Source: Peromyscus leucopus (taxonomy: Eukaryota > Chordata > Mammalia > Rodentia > Cricetidae). From it: DNA of 64,000 nucleotides. This document shows, one piece after another, positions 9,716-46,916 of this stretch. Position numbers and translations under genes: made by a program. Under the pieces are notes generated by a model. The model was not told the DNA's origin, searched no databases, and saw only the letters and a program-made list of their open reading frames with translations. Where the stretch lies: the NCBI RefSeq assembly GCF_004664715.2, contig NC_051065.1, positions 148,363,596 through 148,427,595 of the forward strand, read 5' to 3'. Position 1 is the first letter of the stretch, and each line of letters begins with the position of its first letter.

Positions 9716-10736
9716 TGTATGTGCCATGTGCCTGTGGGTGCCTATGAAGGCCAGAAGGGTGCATTGAATCCACTAGAGCTGGAGTGACATGTGGTTGTGA
9801 GACATCCAACATGGCTCTGAGAACACAACTCCGATCCTCTGGAAGAGCAGCAGGGCCTAACCACTGAGCCATCTCTCTGGTCTCCTCATTTTAATGTGCT
9901 TGATCTGTGTTCCCCACAGCTCAGTAAGAAGACTCAGACTTACACTTTGACCATCAGCCAAAGTGTGTTGGTAACCAACCTGAAACCTGCAACCATCAAA
10001 GTCTATGACTACTACCTGCTAGGTGAGTATGGAGAGCCTACATGCATCTCCCAACAGTTTTATCTCACTTTTATGGCCTCTTACTCTTAATTTTACAAAC
10101 ACTTCTTCCCAAGACAAGCAGCATGCAATCATATTACCTGACCTAAAACATTTTTTTTTTAGTCATCTAAAAAGCCATAGCTGACCAGTGGAGTGCTTGA
10201 CTAGTTAGCATTCACAAGGGCCTGTGTTCAATCCCAGTACCCAGCACAGGGGTGGAGGTGAGGGTGAAGGGAGCCAGGCATGGTGGGAGATGCCTGTAAT
10301 CTCAGCACTTAGGAGGCAAAAGCCAAAAGATAAGGGCTAGCTTCAGCTACATAGAGAGTTTGGGGCCATCCTGGGCTGTATAAGACTGTTTCAAAACAAA
10401 CAAATGAAATAAAATCAGTCAATAATAAAAACTCATCTACAGAAGAGGTATTTTACATGCTGTGGTCTTTAGACCAAAGGAACAAGTAGACCGTTGTTCT
10501 CAAGGAGCTGATGAGTTTCTGATGTAGTCAATAATGGATGCAGTTAATAATTCAACCGTAACACACCCAGTGTTAGTGATGGAAAGTGCTTGTAACTCTA
10601 ATGTGCTTGTGATACACGGAGACATCTGAACATGGATAAAGCAGAACTTTTACCTCTGAATTCTCGCACGAATAACATGTCAATCCATTTCACAGATGAG
10701 CAGGCGATGACTCAGTACTCTGACCCTTGTGAATGA
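14..10736 (+). CDS. A2ml1: alpha-2-macroglobulin-like 1, C-terminal part (spliced, nine coding exons, 5' end outside window)
   Basis: This is a secreted broad-spectrum protease inhibitor of the alpha-2-macroglobulin family, which traps proteases through a bait region and a thioester. Both of those lie upstream of the window. The exons are 14-88, 453-615, 1432-1643, 5836-6051, 6259-6386, 6821-6911, 7442-7510, 9920-10022 and 10696-10736. They join in frame with no stop into 365 codons plus TGA. The protein begins [12 protein letters not shown] (late thioester domain), passes through [20 protein letters not shown] and [12 protein letters not shown] (CUB region), and ends in the receptor-binding domain with [12 protein letters not shown] and a final YSDPCE. 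The sequence fits A2ML1 better than A2M or PZP, for example at [17 protein letters not shown] and [20 protein letters not shown]. Exon phases are consistent throughout. Two introns use GC donors. Nothing looks inactivating in this part. Confidence 0.93.
179..233 (+). repeat. (TG)n microsatellite
   Basis: A pure TG dinucleotide tract of about 50 bases lies in the intron after exon a of A2ml1. Confidence 0.95.
453..615 (+). CDS. A2ml1: A2ml1 coding exon b
   Basis: The acceptor is CCTCTTAG and the donor is TCAG|GTATGT. The exon reads [13 protein letters not shown]...[20 protein letters not shown]...QQATVS and ends with one extra base (phase 1). It is a thioester-domain helix region. Confidence 0.93.
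616..1431 (+). other. A2ml1 intron with a (CA)n tract
   Basis: No coding exon or recognisable transposon is seen here. A (CA)n microsatellite spans about 1,239-1,278. The rest is AT-rich single-copy-looking DNA. Confidence 0.6.
1432..1643 (+). CDS. A2ml1: A2ml1 coding exon c
   Basis: The acceptor is TCTGTAG and the donor is CAG|GTGAGC. Two bases complete the split Gly codon. The exon then reads ESIHWNQKP...[17 protein letters not shown]...AYGGFSSTQ. This is the end of the thioester domain with the conserved GGFSSTQ motif. Confidence 0.94.
1788..2151 (-). mobile_element. Solo LTR, antisense (degenerate)
   Basis: Read on the minus strand this runs from TGTAACAGGCC to a TTAAAACAACA end. It has an AATAAAGACTTCC poly(A) signal (minus strand of 1,847-1,857) placed as in an LTR. 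The TG...CA ends and the signal position suggest a rodent retroviral LTR. No internal region is attached and no clear target duplication was seen. Confidence 0.45.
2412..2516 (+). mobile_element. B1 SINE fragment
   Basis: This is the B1 right part: GCAGATCTCTGTGAGTTCGAGG, the CAGCCTGGTCT core, and the CACAGAGAAACCCTGTCTCG tail. The 5' end is missing. Confidence 0.85.
2517..2816 (+). repeat. (GAAA)n and (GGAA)n purine tracts flanking a B1 tail
   Basis: A long GAAA tetranucleotide tract (2,517-2,663) is followed by a short B1 tail (about 2,665-2,735), then GAAA/GGAA-rich purine DNA to 2,816. It probably grew from B1 A-rich tails. Confidence 0.9.
3225..3320 (+). mobile_element. Degenerate B1 SINE
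   Basis: The sequence CACATCTTTAATCTTAG...GGAGGCAGAGGCAGAG...TGAGTTCAAGG...TCTCAAAA is a diverged B1 in forward orientation. Confidence 0.7.
3394..3471 (+). repeat. Compound (TG)n(GA)n microsatellite
   Basis: About 17 TG units run directly into about 22 GA units in an A2ml1 intron. Confidence 0.95.
3958..4032 (+). mobile_element. ID SINE
   Basis: The sequence AGGGTAGCTCAGTGGTAGAGCACTTGCCTAGCATG...CCTTGGGTTCAATTC is a tRNA-Ala-derived ID element with A-box and B-box remnants. Confidence 0.85.
4202..4456. mobile_element. Two B1 SINEs in head-on inverted orientation
   Basis: A forward B1 left part (about 4,203-4,292) meets an antisense, nearly complete B1 (about 4,300-4,456) across a run of T. 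The two halves are complementary over roughly 80-90 bases. Confidence 0.85.
4572..4655 (-). mobile_element. ID SINE, antisense
   Basis: GCTGGGGATTGAAACCTGGCCTTGTACCTGCTAAGCGAACAGTCTGCCAGCTGGCTAC is the reverse complement of a diverged ID element. Confidence 0.65.
4818..4917 (+). repeat. (TC)n(AC)n microsatellite
   Basis: A CT-rich tract runs into an AC tract within the intron before A2ml1 exon d. Confidence 0.95.
5836..6051 (+). CDS. A2ml1: A2ml1 coding exon d, with GC donor
   Basis: The exon has 72 codons starting [20 protein letters not shown] and ending [11 protein letters not shown]. The acceptor is TTACTTCAG. The only boundary that joins in frame to the next exon is CAG|GCAAGC, a non-canonical GC donor. 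The exon covers the end of the thioester domain and part of the CUB region. Confidence 0.9.
6259..6386 (+). CDS. A2ml1: A2ml1 coding exon e, with GC donor
   Basis: The acceptor is TTCCACCAG. The exon reads [20 protein letters not shown]...SLTLAIHT and leaves two bases (AG) that pair with the T opening the next exon to make Ser. The boundary is ACCAG|GCAAGG, again a GC donor. The family sequence around HTSYVGSRS supports this junction. Confidence 0.88.
6387..6820 (+). repeat. A2ml1: G-rich/GT minisatellite filling an A2ml1 intron
   Basis: The 434 bp intron between exons e and f contains, from about 6,426 to 6,752, seven blocks of the type GGAGGGGGTGGGTGG (with small variants). They are separated by (GT)n runs of varying length. 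The top strand of this stretch has almost no C. Confidence 0.92.
6821..6911 (+). CDS. A2ml1: A2ml1 coding exon f
   Basis: The acceptor is CTGCCCTCAG and the donor is TTA|GTAGGT. After the T that completes Ser, the exon reads [20 protein letters not shown] through EGTKQL. It forms the start of the receptor-binding (MG8) domain. Confidence 0.93.
7112..7195 (-). mobile_element. ID-like SINE, antisense
   Basis: GCTGGGGTTGGAACCCAGGGCCTTGCACATGCTAGGCAAATACTTG is a typical antisense ID body. Confidence 0.75.
7442..7510 (+). CDS. A2ml1: A2ml1 coding exon g
   Basis: The exon has 23 codons, [20 protein letters not shown] and then LEE, between acceptor AAATCCAG and donor GAG|GTAGGT. It belongs to the receptor-binding domain. 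Confidence 0.92.
7541..7599 (+). repeat. (GT)n microsatellite
   Basis: A pure GT tract of about 58 bases starts about 30 bases after A2ml1 exon g. Confidence 0.95.
8097..8212 (+). mobile_element. B1 SINE
   Basis: TGTGGTGGCGCACACCTTTGATC, GGGAGGCAGAGGCAGATGGATC and a TTGTCTCAAGAAA tail show a forward B1 shortened in the middle. Confidence 0.85.
8501..8666 (-). mobile_element. B1 SINE, antisense
   Basis: GAGACAGGGTTTCTCTATGTAG, CAGGCTGGCCTCGAACTCACAGAGATCCGCC and GTGCTGGGATTACAGGTGTGTGCCACC mark a full-length antisense B1. Confidence 0.92.
8752..8816 (-). mobile_element. ID-like SINE, antisense
   Basis: GCTGAAGGTTGAGCCCAGTGCCCTACCACTGAACTGCATGCTAACCC is a diverged antisense ID. Confidence 0.55.
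9048..9225 (-). mobile_element. B1 SINE, antisense
   Basis: AAGACAGGGTTCCTCTGTGTAACAG, CCAGGCTGGCCTTGAACTCACTGAGATCC and CTCCCAAAGTACTGG mark an antisense B1. Confidence 0.88.
9470..9600 (-). mobile_element. Degenerate B1-like SINE, antisense
   Basis: GCAGGGTCTTGCTGTGTCACCCAGGCTCCCC and TCAGCCTCCTGAGTGCTTGGACT resemble an old antisense B1. Confidence 0.55.
9667..9715 (+). repeat. (GT)n microsatellite
   Basis: A pure GT tract lies directly next to an antisense B3 element. Confidence 0.95.
9716..9885 (-). mobile_element. B3/B2-type SINE, antisense
   Basis: GTGCCTGTGGGTGCCTATGAAGGCCAGAAGGGTGCATTG and CCACTGAGCCATCTCTCTGGTC are the antisense body and tRNA-like head of a B3 element. Confidence 0.85.
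9920..10022 (+). CDS. A2ml1: A2ml1 coding exon h
   Basis: The acceptor is TCCCCACAG and the donor is CTAG|GTGAGT. The exon reads [20 protein letters not shown], then [14 protein letters not shown], and ends in phase 1. It holds the beta strands of the receptor-binding domain. Confidence 0.93.
10255..10410 (+). mobile_element. Degenerate B1-like SINE
   Basis: GCCAGGCATGGTGGGAGATGCCTGTAATCTCAGCACTTAGGAGGC and the tail GACTGTTTCAAAACAAAC indicate an old forward B1 relative. Confidence 0.65.
10696..10736 (+). CDS. A2ml1: A2ml1 last coding exon with stop codon
   Basis: The acceptor is TTTCACAG. The split Asp codon is followed by [12 protein letters not shown] and TGA. The exon continues one base past the stop, then reaches a perfect donor, G|GTGAGT, so the 3'UTR begins across an intron. 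Confidence 0.9.
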
Positions 10737-13499: not shown

Positions 13500-14484
13500 A
13501 GGAGATGTTTCCAACTGTTTATGACTTTTACTCTCTTCTCTTTGTTTTCTTCCTTTCTCTTTCCCCATGCCCCATTCCTCCTACCGTTACATCTCCCAAA
13601 GCCCAGAAGCTGGCCTAGTATACAAAATCTGGGTGCATATCTTTACCTCTTCTTTGTAGTCTACCATTAGCCAAAACCCTGCATATCCACCCTATTCCCC
13701 CCGCCGTTTGCCTTGGTCCCCCCCCCCCCCCGCCCCCTTTGTGCATCCCTCTCCTCTACTTCCCATCTAACCACTAATACTCCGGTCTCACCATGACTGC
13801 TCACTTCTTTCCTCATCCTCCCACTCATATCAACATACTAAAGTACACAGGACTATAGTAGTCCCTCCACCCTCTGAAACAATTGGTACTTGACAAGTGT
13901 CTGTTTTGTAGTGTAAGAAACACTAAATATTTATCTTTTCTGTCAAACATGGTAAAGCTTTGATTCGAGACAGGAATTCACCCCCTCCCATAAACCTTTA
14001 TGCAAATGTTTTAATGACCCTCCACCCGGGTAAAGCTTTTGTTTACACCAAGACCCTGCTGCATTCTCAGAACTTGTGACCAACCCCTTCCTGTTTTCCC
14101 TCCTTTCCTTTGAACTGATTCTTTTTAAGTTAGCCAGTCATGAAAGACTGTGAGGTCAGACCCCAGGCAAGAGAGAAAAAACAGCCACCACCTGCATGAG
14201 AATGAAAACCAAGAGCACTCCCTGCCTTAGAGTGCTCATTCTTCTCATTTTGTGGGTAGTGCTCCCTCTTGACCAAGAGTCAAGTTTTGTCCCTTCGTGT
14301 GACATCATGATTATTTCTGTTAATGTACTGCTGGATAGTGACTGCTGCTACAGACAGTGCTCAGCCCACAGGGATGGACTGGAGATAGAACCTGGACATC
14401 AGTTTAACAAATGAGAATATTACTACAACCCCCATCTGTCCTGAACACTGTAAACATGTCCACTTAAAGAAGAAAAGCAACAGG
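13500..14484 (+). other. Intergenic stretch, possibly an old LTR near its end
   Basis: C-rich DNA with a poly(C) tract (about 13,718-13,736) is followed by sequence from about 13,910 to 14,410 with the composition of an old LTR (GTGAGGTCAGACCCCAGGCAAG and similar). I cannot define ends. No coding exon is seen. Confidence 0.3.
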
Positions 14485-14646
14485 TGAAGGGTTTACAACA
14501 CGCCCCCCACGGTCCCATTTACCAGGTGGACACTTCCGCCTAGCCATTTCTGGGTCAAAGCGTCTCTCGTAGCCAGGATACCCGGCGGACCCGGACATCT
14601 CCGCCTAGCAACTTCCGGCCAAGGCATCTCGCGTGACCAGAATCCG

Positions 14647-14716
14647 TGACGTTACATGGCTACGTAAGCGTGCTACGTGACCATGTGATCTACGCACATG
14701 CGTGGAGTAGTGACGT
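14647..14716 (+). promoter_or_regulatory. Cluster of CRE/ATF-like and ACGT-core sites in LTR U3
   Basis: TGACGT occurs at 14,647-14,652 and 14,711-14,716. TACGTAAG and TACGTGACC lie between them. The cluster is 25-95 bases upstream of the TATA-like box, the usual place for enhancer sites. Binding is inferred, and the same sites recur in the 3' LTR. Confidence 0.5.
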
Positions 14717-14740
14717 GACCTGGCCACGCCCCCAGCCGGT

Positions 14741-14748
14741 TTTTAAAG
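14741..14748 (+). promoter_or_regulatory. TATA-like box of the 5' LTR
   Basis: TTTTAAAG lies about 100 bases upstream of the LTR AATAAA, consistent with the U3/R layout of retroviral LTRs. Confidence 0.5.
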
Positions 14749-14930
14749 CGGAGCGCCATATTCCCAGTTCTCCCTCTTCTCCTCTTCCTCTTCCCCACTC
14801 ACATGTCTCTCCCACAGGCCTGCACTCTCTATCCCTGTATCTCTAATAAACTCTTATAAGCGGATTCTGTCGTGTTTCGTGACACTTCCTTGCAGGGTAA
14901 GAACACAACGCAGCTAAATAACTAACATTT

Positions 14931-14948
14931 TGGTGCCGAAACCGAGCG
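14931..14948 (+). other. Primer binding site, tRNA-Phe type
   Basis: TGGTGCCGAAACC begins three bases after the 5' LTR. It matches the primer-site consensus complementary to the tRNA-Phe 3' end for 13 bases, then diverges. Confidence 0.75.
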
Positions 14949-15270
14949 GGCGCTCCCGGGTGCTTTGCGCCTGGAAACCCGCGAACCGGGGAATCTGCTC
15001 CGTACGCAACAGACCGCTTTCCATTCGCCTGAATCGCATCCAAATTGCATCCAACACCGCTTTCTTCGATTGTTGAGTCCCCCCATTTTTCGGCCAGCTT
15101 AAACGGTTTCCTGAATCTGTGAGAACGACCGTTGATTGTCCGGCGCCTCACACGTGTTCTTGAGACCGGGGGAACCCCCGACCACGGTCTTCATTGGCTA
15201 CGGTCGGCCCCTATCGCAGGCCTAACTCTTCTAGCCGTCTCCCATGTCTGCAGCCTGAGATATTTCTTGA

Positions 15271-15730
15271 GTTAGGGCCACCACCGTTGGTGCGTTCTGG
15301 GAGCCACGTGAGGCCGGCACGTCCATCTCCTTGACGAAGGGGCAAACGCTGTCTGGATTCCCGGGGAATCCTTTCCTCACCGTGGAGGGGGCCCCTGCTT
15401 CTGTGGCTGACGAGTCAAGGAGCAGCCTGCGCCCGGTATCCGCCCTTGGCCTTGGGGACGCCTGGGGCCTTGGCTCCGGATCACGTTTATTTTTTATTAT
15501 TGTTAGGGCCACCACCGTTGGTGCGTCCTGGGAGCCACGTGAGGCCGGCACGTTCATCTCCTTGACGAAGGGGCAAACGCTGTCTGGATTCCCGGGGAAT
15601 CCTTTCCTCACCGTGGAGGGGGCCCCTGCTTCTGTGGCTGACGAGTCAAGGAGCAGCCTGCGCCCGGTATCCGCCCTTGGCCTTGGGGACGCCTGGGGCC
15701 TTGGCTCCGGATCACGTTTATTTTTTATTT
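15271..15730 (+). repeat. 231 bp tandem duplication in the ERV leader
   Basis: Two copies of a unit beginning GTTAGGGCCACCACCGTTGG start at 15,271 and 15,502. Over about 228 bases I see only two differences (GTTCTGGG/GTCCTGGG and CGTCCATC/CGTTCATC). It lies between the primer site and the gag start, where packaging signals normally sit. Confidence 0.92.
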
Positions 15731-15749
15731 TTCTGCCTCTGCTGCAGAC

Positions 15750-15905
15750 ATGGGAAACAAGGCTTCCAACCCTGTTAGTCCTTCCTCTCCGTTAGGCTGT
15801 CTTGTTGAAGCTTTAAAACCTCTCAGTTTAATGCCTTATGTAAAGATTTCTAAGCTAACTTGTTTATGTTCAAAAAAGTGGCCAAAGTATGCTTTAAAAA
15901 AATAA
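15750..15905 (+). pseudogene. ERV gag start, truncated by a stop codon
   Basis: An ATG opens a 51-codon frame beginning MGNKAS, which would be a myristoylation-type N-terminus. It contains PLGCLVEALKPL and KISKLTCLCSKKWPKY, like the matrix start of class I Gag. It stops at TAA within an A-rich stretch. The downstream sequence is not in the same frame, so the gene is broken. Confidence 0.65.
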
Positions 15906-16185
15906 AAAAGAGCCGCCGAGCGGCTCCTTAGATCCCGATATTTCACGGGAGCTATCCAATCACTGTCGGCGTTCAGGCAAATGGAAAGAGTTGCTTTCTT
16001 CTTTCTCAACGCTAAACTGTCTCTTCTCGTTTCCTTCTCTCCTGCTCATATGCTCCTAGCTATACATAAAACAGAGGATTCTCTGACTCTGGAATCTCTG
16101 ACTCTAGATCTTGCTAAGGAACTAATAATTAAAATTCATGTTCCATTCTCTCTCTCTAACAGAATATATATACATGATACTTTCT

Positions 16186-16419
16186 AATAATTTACTCCCG
16201 GAGGAACTCAGGCGGGTATGGGAGCAGGCTAGGATTCACGCAGACGAAATTCATCAAACTAACCTTTCACACCCCCCAGGAGCCAAAGCGGTTCCTGATC
16301 GAGAGCCACACTGGGACTACAACACCCAGAGTGGCTGTCTAGCCAGAGATAAGTTTATTACCTGTCTCCTGACAGGCCTCCATAAGGCTGCCCTAAAACC
16401 AGTAAATAGTTCAGGATAA
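16186..16419 (+). pseudogene. ERV gag capsid relic
   Basis: An open stretch includes LLPEELRRVWEQARIHADEI and VPDREPHWDYNTQSG, which resemble the C-terminal half of a class I retroviral capsid. It ends in a stop after ALKPVNSSG. The 5' half of the capsid is not recognisable. Confidence 0.7.
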
Positions 16420-16829
16420 ATACGAAAATCTGTCTCTTGTTCCCCAGACCTACCTGACTAAAACTTAAGCATCTGGAGAGCGAGGCTCCTGACCCCACAG
16501 GCAAAAGAGTCACCTGTGGCATTTAAGATGTGCCAGGGAAGAGATAAAAGCCCGAAAACAAAATTGCCAAGTGCTGGCACTCGCTGACTTCCAAAAGCTG
16601 TTGGGTCCCTGTTTTAAATGAGGAAAAGGCCACGGGCTACCGAATGCTCTGCTAGGCCATCAACAGCCTTGTTAAAAGTGCCGCCTAGAAAGACAGAGTC
16701 AGCTGACTGCCCCCAGGCACCAAGATGCATGGGTACATCAAGCTAAGACCTCCAACAGACCTAGGCTTGGCTACAGACATGACAGGGAACCCAGAACGCA
16801 GCAGGGAAGCGATCCGTTTCTTTCCTTCT

Positions 16830-17045
16830 GGACACCAGAGCCATTCATTGACTCAGTCCTGGGAGTTTTGGGATGCCACCTCTCCTTTATTGTCGGGTAC
16901 AGGGGACAGCCTTATCTACCTCAGCAGACACCGCCATTTAATTGTATTTTCAGAGGCATCCCTCTCACACATACATTCTTAGTGGTGCTAAGTTGCCCTG
17001 TACCTTTAATGGGAAGGATCTCCTAGCTAAGGTAGGAGCGTCCAT
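16830..17045 (+). pseudogene. ERV protease relic
   Basis: Frameshifted fragments near 16,850-17,040 include a CPVPL-like stretch followed by GKDLLAKVGA, resembling the C-terminal end of a retroviral aspartic protease. No intact frame remains. Confidence 0.5.
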
Positions 17046-17109
17046 TTCTTTTCACTCCACACATTTGCCTCCTCCCAGACACGCCAGCAGCTCTCTTACT
17101 TCTTCTCCG

Positions 17110-17275
17110 AGCCACTAACTCTACAGACTCCAAATATGCTTTTCATATCCTCCTGTCTGTCCCACACTGCTATTTGGAGGGAGCGTGGACTTCTCACAGC
17201 AAAAGGAGGATCCGTGTCTAACTCAGGCCATATAATGGCCATGCTGGAGGCTTCCCACCTCACCAGGGCTACAGC
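17110..17275 (+). pseudogene. ERV RNase H relic
   Basis: Fragments reading DSKYAFHIL and, in another frame, ERGLLTAKGG...HIMAMLEASHL resemble the end of a pol RNase H domain. The polymerase domain that should precede it is absent, indicating a large deletion. Confidence 0.5.
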
Positions 17276-17452
17276 TCGATCTTACCCATATGCCATCTCC
17301 TCAGACCAGTTCTAACACCAGGTCTTTTTTCCAAGCCTCCAACTGTTCCAGATAGACTGTTAACTCCTCTTTTATGTCACCTAAGGTCTATTCTATGAAG
17401 CTATGCGGACTGTTCACTGCCTCAGCCGTGTGACAATCCTTGCCCATCTCCA

Positions 17453-17656
17453 ATGCACATTGGGGATCAGGTTCTTCTCTTTCCTCCAGGCCAGCGCCCT
17501 TTACCTCTTTCCCTTAAGTGGCAGGGACCCTTCAAGGTAATTCTTGTAACCCCCACAGCTGCTAAACTCGAGGGCTTTCCTCACTGGGTCCACCTGTCCC
17601 ACCTAAAACCTTTTATCTCACCTCCATCCCAGAAAATCTCTCTTCATATACAGTGA
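17453..17656 (+). pseudogene. ERV integrase C-terminal relic (GPY/F motif)
   Basis: An open frame includes IGDQVLLFPPGQ, LKWQGPFKVILVTPTAAKLE and PHWVHLSHLKPF. These fit the C-terminal domain of class I integrases with the GPF variant of the GPY/F motif. The catalytic core is missing. Confidence 0.75.
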
Positions 17657-18328
17657 AACAAACAGGGCCTTTCATTCTCAAGCTCCAGAGGACATCAGAA
17701 TCCACTGCCTTGTCACCAATTCCAGAGGAATAAGGTATCACCCCTCCCTTTCCCAACCAGGGCCACACAGAGCCGGAGGCAAAAAGGACCATCAAGAATA
17801 TCCAGGTGGTAAGGAATAATGTAATACAACCATTTATCATTGTTCAATACTCAGCAACTGATCACCAGTGTTTCCTAAGTGTTAACCTAATAAGGAAAAC
17901 AGGTGCCTTAAATGAACTACTTCTAATGAGGCTTGTCTCAGATAGAAATTAAGCAGGGTACTAAGACCAGATCTACCTCAGGTAAATGTCACATGCCTCT
18001 ATCTGGACAGGCCAAATCTACCTCAGACAAATGCCAACTTCAAAATAAAATAATAACGATTCTTTCTCTCTAAGCTCTCTCTATGTCAACAGTATCTTGT
18101 TAAATGGGAGGTCCCCAGCAGCAGCACGGATGGACAGCCGCAGAACCAGGAGATTGCAGAACATCATTCCAGGACCTCCACCATCATCCCCGGACTTCAC
18201 AAGATACCCCTCACCCCCCCAAGAGCCAACCAACGCCCACTATTCAGCTGGAAGCAGTTTTTGAGAGAAACGTCGCCCCCGTACCCAGTCAACCACAATT
18301 TTTTCTTTTTAAAAATAAGAGTCGGGAA
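17657..18328 (+). other. ERV 3' region with polypurine-tract-like end
   Basis: The expected env region is short and has no recognisable env domains. It ends in AAAAATAAGAGTCGGGAA (18,311-18,328), a degenerate polypurine tract immediately before the 3' LTR. Confidence 0.5.
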
Positions 18329-18771
18329 TGAAGGGTTTACAACACGCCCCCCACGGTCCCATTTACCAGGTGGACACTTCCGCCTAGCCATTTCTGGGTC
18401 AAAGCGTCTCTCGTAGCCAGGATACCCGGCGGACCCGGACATCTCCGCCTAGCAACTTCCGGCCAAGGCATCTCGCGTGACCAGAATCCGTGACGTTACA
18501 TGGCTACGTAAGCGTGCTACGTGACCATGTGATCTACGCACATGCGTGGAGTAGTGACGTGACCTGGCCACGCCCCCAGCCGGTTTTTAAAGCGGAGCGC
18601 CATATTCCCAGTTCTCCCTCTTCTCCTCTTCCTCTTCCCCACTCACATGTCTCTCCCACAGGCCTGCACTCTCTATCCCTGTATCTCTAATAAACTCTTA
18701 TAAGCGGATTCTGTCGTGTTTCGTGACACTTCCTTGCAGGGTAAGAACACAACGCAGCTAAATAACTAACA
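18329..18771 (+). repeat. 3' LTR of the young ERV
   Basis: This 443 bp copy is read as identical to the 5' LTR (offset 3,844). Its AATAAA is at 18,689-18,694. It is followed by ACAGG, matching the sequence just before the 5' LTR. Confidence 0.93.
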
Positions 18772-19795
18772 ACAGGAATAGAAGGAAAAACCAAAAACCA
18801 AAACAACAACCAACTCCACCTTCAAAAACTGACCCTAGATGGGCAGAAACAAAAGTAATATGAAAAACCAAGACAGCATTTCTCCTTCCCAAATTACCAA
18901 CTGGATCCTCAAAGAAAACAACTTGGACAAAGTTCCAGATGCAGAATTCAAAAGATCATATAAGTATGATCAAACAACTAAAAAAAGGCATGACTATTTT
19001 CCAAGAGAACACAGATAGCTGAATGAAAATATCAAAGTTAATCTATGATATGAAAATAAAACTAAAAAATGAGATAGAAATACTAACTATAGGGAGAGGA
19101 GGAAGCCCTTAGTTGAGTAAAGTCCTGAGTGAATTGGTATCACTGACATGGACATGGTTGTATCAAGGACCCTGATACCTCAGCACCATGGGAGAGGCAG
19201 AGCCTTTCCCCGAAGAGGCTCATTAAAAAAAGGATTCAGAAAGTCCCAAACACCACAAAGTAAACAAAACGACAGGAAGAATGCACAGCTTTCCACGATA
19301 ACTCTGAATATAAATGTTCTCAATTCACCATCAAAAGACAGACTAGGAGACTGGTTTAGAAAACAGAACCTCTCTTTTTGCTTCTTCAAGAAACACGTCG
19401 AAGATAAACACTATTTAAAGGAGAGAGGGTGGGAGGTGGTACAATCAAATGGAAGCAGGAAACACACAGGTGCTGCTATTATAATAATGGGCAAAATAGG
19501 ATTCAAACCAAATCTTGTCATAAGGAATGAAAGAGTTATTTTATACTTATTCAAGAATAAATTATAATTCTAGATACATATGATCTGAATATAGGCTCAC
19601 CTAACTTCACAAGGCAATCACTATTAGGTTTCAAATCACACATTAATGTCAACAAAGTAATAGTGGGTAACTTCAGTATTACACTGTCATCATTAAACAG
19701 ATCAAATGTACAAAAAAGGAATAAAGAAATACTGGAATTATCATAAGTCAAATGTACTTAACTGACATCTATGGTTCTGTCAATATACCAAAGAA

Positions 19796-46758: not shown

Positions 46759-46916
46759 GGCTTGAGTCAGAGCACCATCCTTGGGGACCCTGGACCACGA
46801 TCATGGAGACTGAGAGTGAGCAGAACTCTAGCTCTACCAACGGGAGTTCCAGCTCGGGGGGCAGCTCTCGGCCCCAGATAGCACAAATGTCCCTGTATGA
46901 GCGGCAGGCAGTGCAG
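46759..46916 (+). CDS. Phc1: Phc1 exon with start codon
   Basis: The acceptor CCATCTAG is followed by 44 bases of 5'UTR and ATG at 46,803, then [20 protein letters not shown] to ERQAVQ. The donor is CAG|GTGAGC. There are 38 codons and no upstream ATG in this exon. Confidence 0.95.

Follow-up and report, generated by a model that had tools for sequence, protein, structure and literature searches.

A recently inserted class I endogenous retrovirus without working genes, probably of ERV-F/H type, between A2ml1 and Phc1 in Peromyscus leucopus

Mouse VL30 elements are described as class I and non-autonomous, measuring 4,075-6,321 bp, with LTRs of 436-681 bp, gag and pol regions filled with stop codons, and no env (PMC4859993). 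The same description gives identical LTRs for 42 of 86 full-length copies, 4-bp target duplications in 76 of 86, and primer sites of the Gly, Pro, Gln, Met or Thr type (PMC4859993). One human HERV-H element of 5.0 kb, which has a 5-bp duplication, is reported to lack almost all of env and large parts of both gag and pol, and a single deletion group is said to hold 40 of 51 related HERV-H elements (PMC3036903). In the deer mouse, mysTR-related ERVK elements are described as non-coding and are thought to rely on coding relatives (PMC10089650). Mobilization in trans has been inferred both for these ERVK elements (PMC10089650) and for mouse VL30 (PMC4859993).

Rev-A is presented as the gammaretrovirus that gives a 5-bp target duplication where the others give 4 bp (PMC4422553), and 5 bp were likewise reported for it in vitro (PMC3790719). 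SNV, REV, HERV-H and ERV-Fc are named as the 5-bp exceptions among class I (PMC4798954). According to the same source, ERV-Fc has a primer site for tRNA-Phe, duplicates 5 bp of its target, and shows TG..CA ends and a cytosine bias; the group is represented by gag fragments in the Chinese hamster and by capsid sequences in mouse and rat, and its colonization was inferred to date to 10-30 Mya (PMC4798954).

The locus studied here lies in a stretch of 64,000 bases of the P. leucopus genome (the window), which contains no N. A preliminary description had placed a young ERV between A2ml1 and Phc1, and both neighbors were borne out. Translated exons upstream of the element had human A2ML1 as their top PDB match (7q1y, E 3.6e-82), followed by alpha-2-macroglobulin (E 1.9e-38), and position 10736 is the last base of the A2ml1 stop codon. 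With human PHC1 as the tblastn query, coding matches to Phc1 started at 46803; there were 12 in all, reaching to 63778, with 11 at 79.6-100% identity and one at 45%. The element begins 3,749 bp past the A2ml1 stop codon and ends 28,032 bp ahead of the first coding match to Phc1; it shares its strand with both genes. Among the B1 elements of the window, one non-Mus form had five exact sites, another had one, and the Mus form had none; together with the Peromyscus relative described below, this fits a non-Mus muroid host, probably a cricetid. No papers on this locus were found by locus terms. The features of the element are as follows.

14480..14484, no strand, target site duplication, 5′ copy (ACAGG)
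14485..14927, + strand, 5′ LTR, 443 bp
14928..15270, + strand, CpG-rich untranslated leader
14931..14948, + strand, Phe-like primer binding site, behind the LTR after a 3-nt spacer
15271..15732, + strand, tandem duplication of 2 × 231 bp with 3 differences
15750..15905, + strand, gag start codon, with the frame shut after 51 codons
16177..16407, + strand, gag capsid relic
17103..17267, + strand, RNase H relic
17303..17641, + strand, integrase C-terminal relic
18299..18328, + strand, T-rich stretch and polypurine tract
18329..18771, + strand, 3′ LTR, the same as the 5′ LTR
18772..18776, no strand, target site duplication, 3′ copy (ACAGG)

Direct comparison of 14485-14927 with 18329-18771 showed identity at 443 of 443 positions, as the preliminary description had read, and the identity extended 0 bases further on either side. 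Both LTRs start with TG and end with CA. The intact target duplication was likewise confirmed, ACAGG forming the end of the 5′ flank and the beginning of the 3′ flank. This word occurs 95 times in the 64,000 bases, giving a probability of about 0.0015 for a chance match at the second boundary. The 5′ LTR has AATAAA at 14845 and TTTAAA at 14742, and its U3 region contains two diverged 52-bp repeats. ACGT cores were counted four times in U3, with a mean of 1.4 in shuffled sequences and as many in 87 of 2000 shuffles. No further LTR copy was found in the 64-kb window by blastn, and a 30-base pattern spanning LTR and primer site had no match in the genome contigs searched.

The first 13 nt of the primer site match tRNA-Phe and the remainder matches poorly. 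Folding of the leader was no better than that of shuffled sequences (z -0.26; 38 of 100 shuffles as good), and we therefore claim no packaging structure. Pyrimidines interrupt the polypurine tract before the 3′ LTR. Cytosine made up 33.0% of the LTR and 28.5% of the internal region, compared with 21.6% and 22.9% of the flanks. This bias was uneven, with 24.5% in the gag part and more G than C in the tandem duplication.

Between these ends, only broken remnants of genes were detected. The Pfam scan covered 30 of the 43 plus-strand stretches of at least 28 aa, the remainder lying in the leader or tandem duplication (11) or near the 3′ end (2). The integrase relic matched MLVIN_C with an E-value that passes the cutoff of the model (5.4e-10), and was also recognized by PDB entry 2m9u (E 3e-8) and by tblastn of relatives. 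The RNase H relic matched MLV-type RNase H chains (E 5.1e-4). The capsid relic, for which 13 relatives were found, matched Gag_p30 under the cutoff of that model (E 4.4e-4), and the gag start had no Pfam match. The capsid, RNase H and integrase relics lie in three different frames, and stop codons close the stretches that hold the gag start, the capsid and the integrase. In the 30 plus-strand pieces, no reverse transcriptase polymerase, integrase core or env was detected. Judged by retroviral gene order, the relics are too near one another to hold the missing domains.

No NCBIfam family was assigned to six pieces, the piece at 17222-17395 had no PDB match, and the window held no Rfam match at gathering thresholds and no tRNA gene according to ARAGORN. 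A protease match (E 0.94) was not counted. FlgK and two DUF models, matched under their cutoffs in a 174-aa frame across the tandem duplication, were taken as chance, as were the remaining weak Pfam matches of the pieces. Homology to class I (gammaretrovirus-like) gag and pol is seen in the MLVIN_C, 2m9u and RNase H matches and, under its cutoff, in Gag_p30. The element is accordingly a class I ERV with broken, out-of-frame scraps of genes, and a betaretroviral (IAP-like) origin was dropped, the relics being of gamma type.

Relatives of the remnants were sought in protein collections. The integrase piece gave 21 relatives from 21 candidates and the capsid piece 13 that scored from 15 candidates (E 8.2e-34 to 1.5e-10), while a large protein set offered a single candidate for the RNase H piece, which did not score. 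The nearest named relative was a Peromyscus protein (P0007), which agreed at 40 of 44 residues; the tail of P0007 has a further match to the window, in another frame, and no match was found for its first 48 residues. The break in the capsid stretch was examined in P0022 and six others of the 13 relatives. P0022, itself broken, follows the window beyond the break to DLPD, its own end, whereas P0023, P0024, P0025, P0028, P0029 and P0030 go on at this point as ordinary capsid, with N(Y/F)xKL. That the abnormal break is common to the element and P0022, one of the 13 matches, suggests that a family of defective elements may exist. Three scans of viral contigs yielded no confirmed locus; the last two gave 11 and 2 pattern matches, none of which was upheld by tblastn.

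The absence of any difference in 443 bp sets an upper age, at 95%, of 0.16-1.54 My. This range covers substitution rates of 2.2e-9 to 1e-8 per site and year, either with a ten-fold factor for CpG or without it. The CpG content of the element is strongly divided. LTR and leader together hold 58 CpG with 57.5 expected (observed/expected: LTR 0.91, leader 1.12), and the flanking DNA is at 0.24 and 0.21 of expectation. The region 16129-18056 holds 29 CpG with 103.9 expected, and its five stretches range from 0.06 to 0.42. An excess of TpG or CpA is the mark of CpG decay. In 300-bp windows of the relic, TpG reached up to 1.65 and CpA up to 1.43, the excess being present in parts and not throughout (capsid stretch: TpG 0.73, CpA 1.05). 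Low CpG in the middle may be the virus's own composition rather than decay, and the high CpG at the ends could have been preserved because methylation is lacking, not because the ends are young. Our reading is that selection preserved the cis-acting ends through many rounds of copying, and that the useless coding part decayed.

Because the LTRs are identical, the target duplication is intact and the CpG of LTR and leader is undecayed, a recent insertion is well supported. Of the preliminary description, which also raised the possibility of a polymorphic insertion, the recent single insertion stands; the broken state of the genes is a further finding. We consider it probable that a non-autonomous class I ERV with internal deletions, probably of ERV-F/H type, recently retrotransposed to this locus in the germ line. 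The RNA of a parent copy would have carried LTR ends, primer site, leader and polypurine tract and no working gene, and the proteins of a coding relative would have packaged, reverse transcribed and integrated it. One template would have served for both LTRs in reverse transcription, so that they would be identical at the start, and integrase would have left the 5-bp duplication. Since the element is without a working gene, the proteins of another element would be needed for packaging, reverse transcription and integration. From this anatomy we infer that it was probably copied in trans; our searches found no coding helper.

The defects could instead be a one-off, in which a coding class I provirus was heavily deleted, either in its own final round of reverse transcription or following a recent insertion, and no defective family exists. 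Retroviral copying often gives deletions, and a single copy was seen here, both of which fit this account. It is unlikely, however, given that P0022 has the same capsid break and that several stop codons, frame changes and low CpG in the remnants contrast with zero LTR differences. Indeed, because the remnants are broken and CpG-poor while the LTRs are without difference, much of the damage is older than the insertion. An older insertion whose LTRs were equalized by gene conversion would also result in identical LTRs with an intact duplication. Conversion would not renew the leader, which lies outside the LTR and yet has undecayed CpG as well, and we regard this origin as very unlikely.

Collapse of repeats can happen during assembly, and one LTR might have been placed twice; with clean ends, a matching 5-bp duplication and no N, such an artefact is highly improbable. 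Membership in VL30 has a number of points in its favor, since elements of that type, as described, share the size class, class I affinity, stop-filled gag and pol and the want of a detected env (PMC4859993). The locus has a 5-bp duplication and a Phe-like primer site, in contrast to the 4 bp and other primers described for VL30 (PMC4859993). A VL30-type element is thus extremely improbable, the grounds being the length of the duplication and the primer site as compared with the published description.

The usual 4-bp target duplication of class I is replaced here by 5 bp, although a 5-bp integrase cannot be proved from a single duplication. The element resembles ERV-Fc in this duplication, as seen in one insertion only, in its TG..CA ends, in its excess of C and in its gamma-like gag and pol. 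The primer site is of Phe type in its first 13 nt and poor in the rest. The element departs from the dates given for ERV-Fc, this copy being at most about 1.5 My old by its LTRs and retaining gene scraps only. The 5-bp duplication and the losses in gag and pol are also like those of deleted HERV-H, a human group likened here by description. Stop-filled gag and pol, and env without a match in the 30 pieces scanned, recall VL30. The element resembles the mysTR-related ERVK of the deer mouse in being a non-coding cricetid LTR element and differs from it in class, ERVK being class II and the relics here class I. An ERV-F/H affinity is likely, on features compared by published description rather than by a tree. 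More tentatively, we put forward the possibility that an ERV-F/Fc/H type with a working copy in cricetids, present now or until very recently, and with a 5-bp-stagger integrase, might be propagating a satellite family without genes, whose cis-acting ends persist as the coding remnant decays.

As a young rodent ERV, the element is ordinary, and identical LTRs by themselves are nothing unusual in rodents, being described for nearly half (42/86) of the full-length mouse VL30 copies (PMC4859993). As a class I element that lacks working genes, moved recently and is probably of ERV-F type, it is somewhat unusual. It is less common for class I relics, a Phe-like primer site and a 5-bp duplication to occur together in a copy at most about 1.5 My old. 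No young ERV-F-like rodent element appeared among the literature titles searched, which is not a claim of absence from print. The insertion also puts an LTR rich in CpG, oriented like the gene, 28 kb ahead of the coding region of Phc1, and any effect on Phc1 is speculation. If the element is ERV-F-like, activity of the ERV-F group would extend nearly to the present, and the partner that mobilized it could be sought in this host.

In the endogenous retrovirus, a spacer of 3 bases separates the end of the 5' LTR from the primer site (14928-14948), where the match to tRNA-Phe becomes poor beyond the first 13 nt. Next to the 3' LTR, the polypurine tract (18299-18328) is broken up by pyrimidines, and the integrated ends of the element are nevertheless clean. 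The region upstream of this LTR (18049-18328) holds three open stretches, one of them starting at 18104; a Pfam scan of the other two returned no convincing match for either.

Within U3, two diverged copies of a repeat (14528-14643; 75% identity over 52 bp) occur in each of the LTRs, an arrangement that is enhancer-like. Immediately 5' of the gag start, a pyrimidine run ends in CTGCAG (15720-15752), and this candidate resembles a 3' splice site.

The leader carries a 231-bp tandem duplication (15271-15732). Its two copies differ at 3 positions, versus 0 of 443 between the LTRs (Fisher p 0.04). Accordingly, the duplication is probably older than this insertion and was inherited from an earlier copy of the element; it could serve as a subfamily marker.
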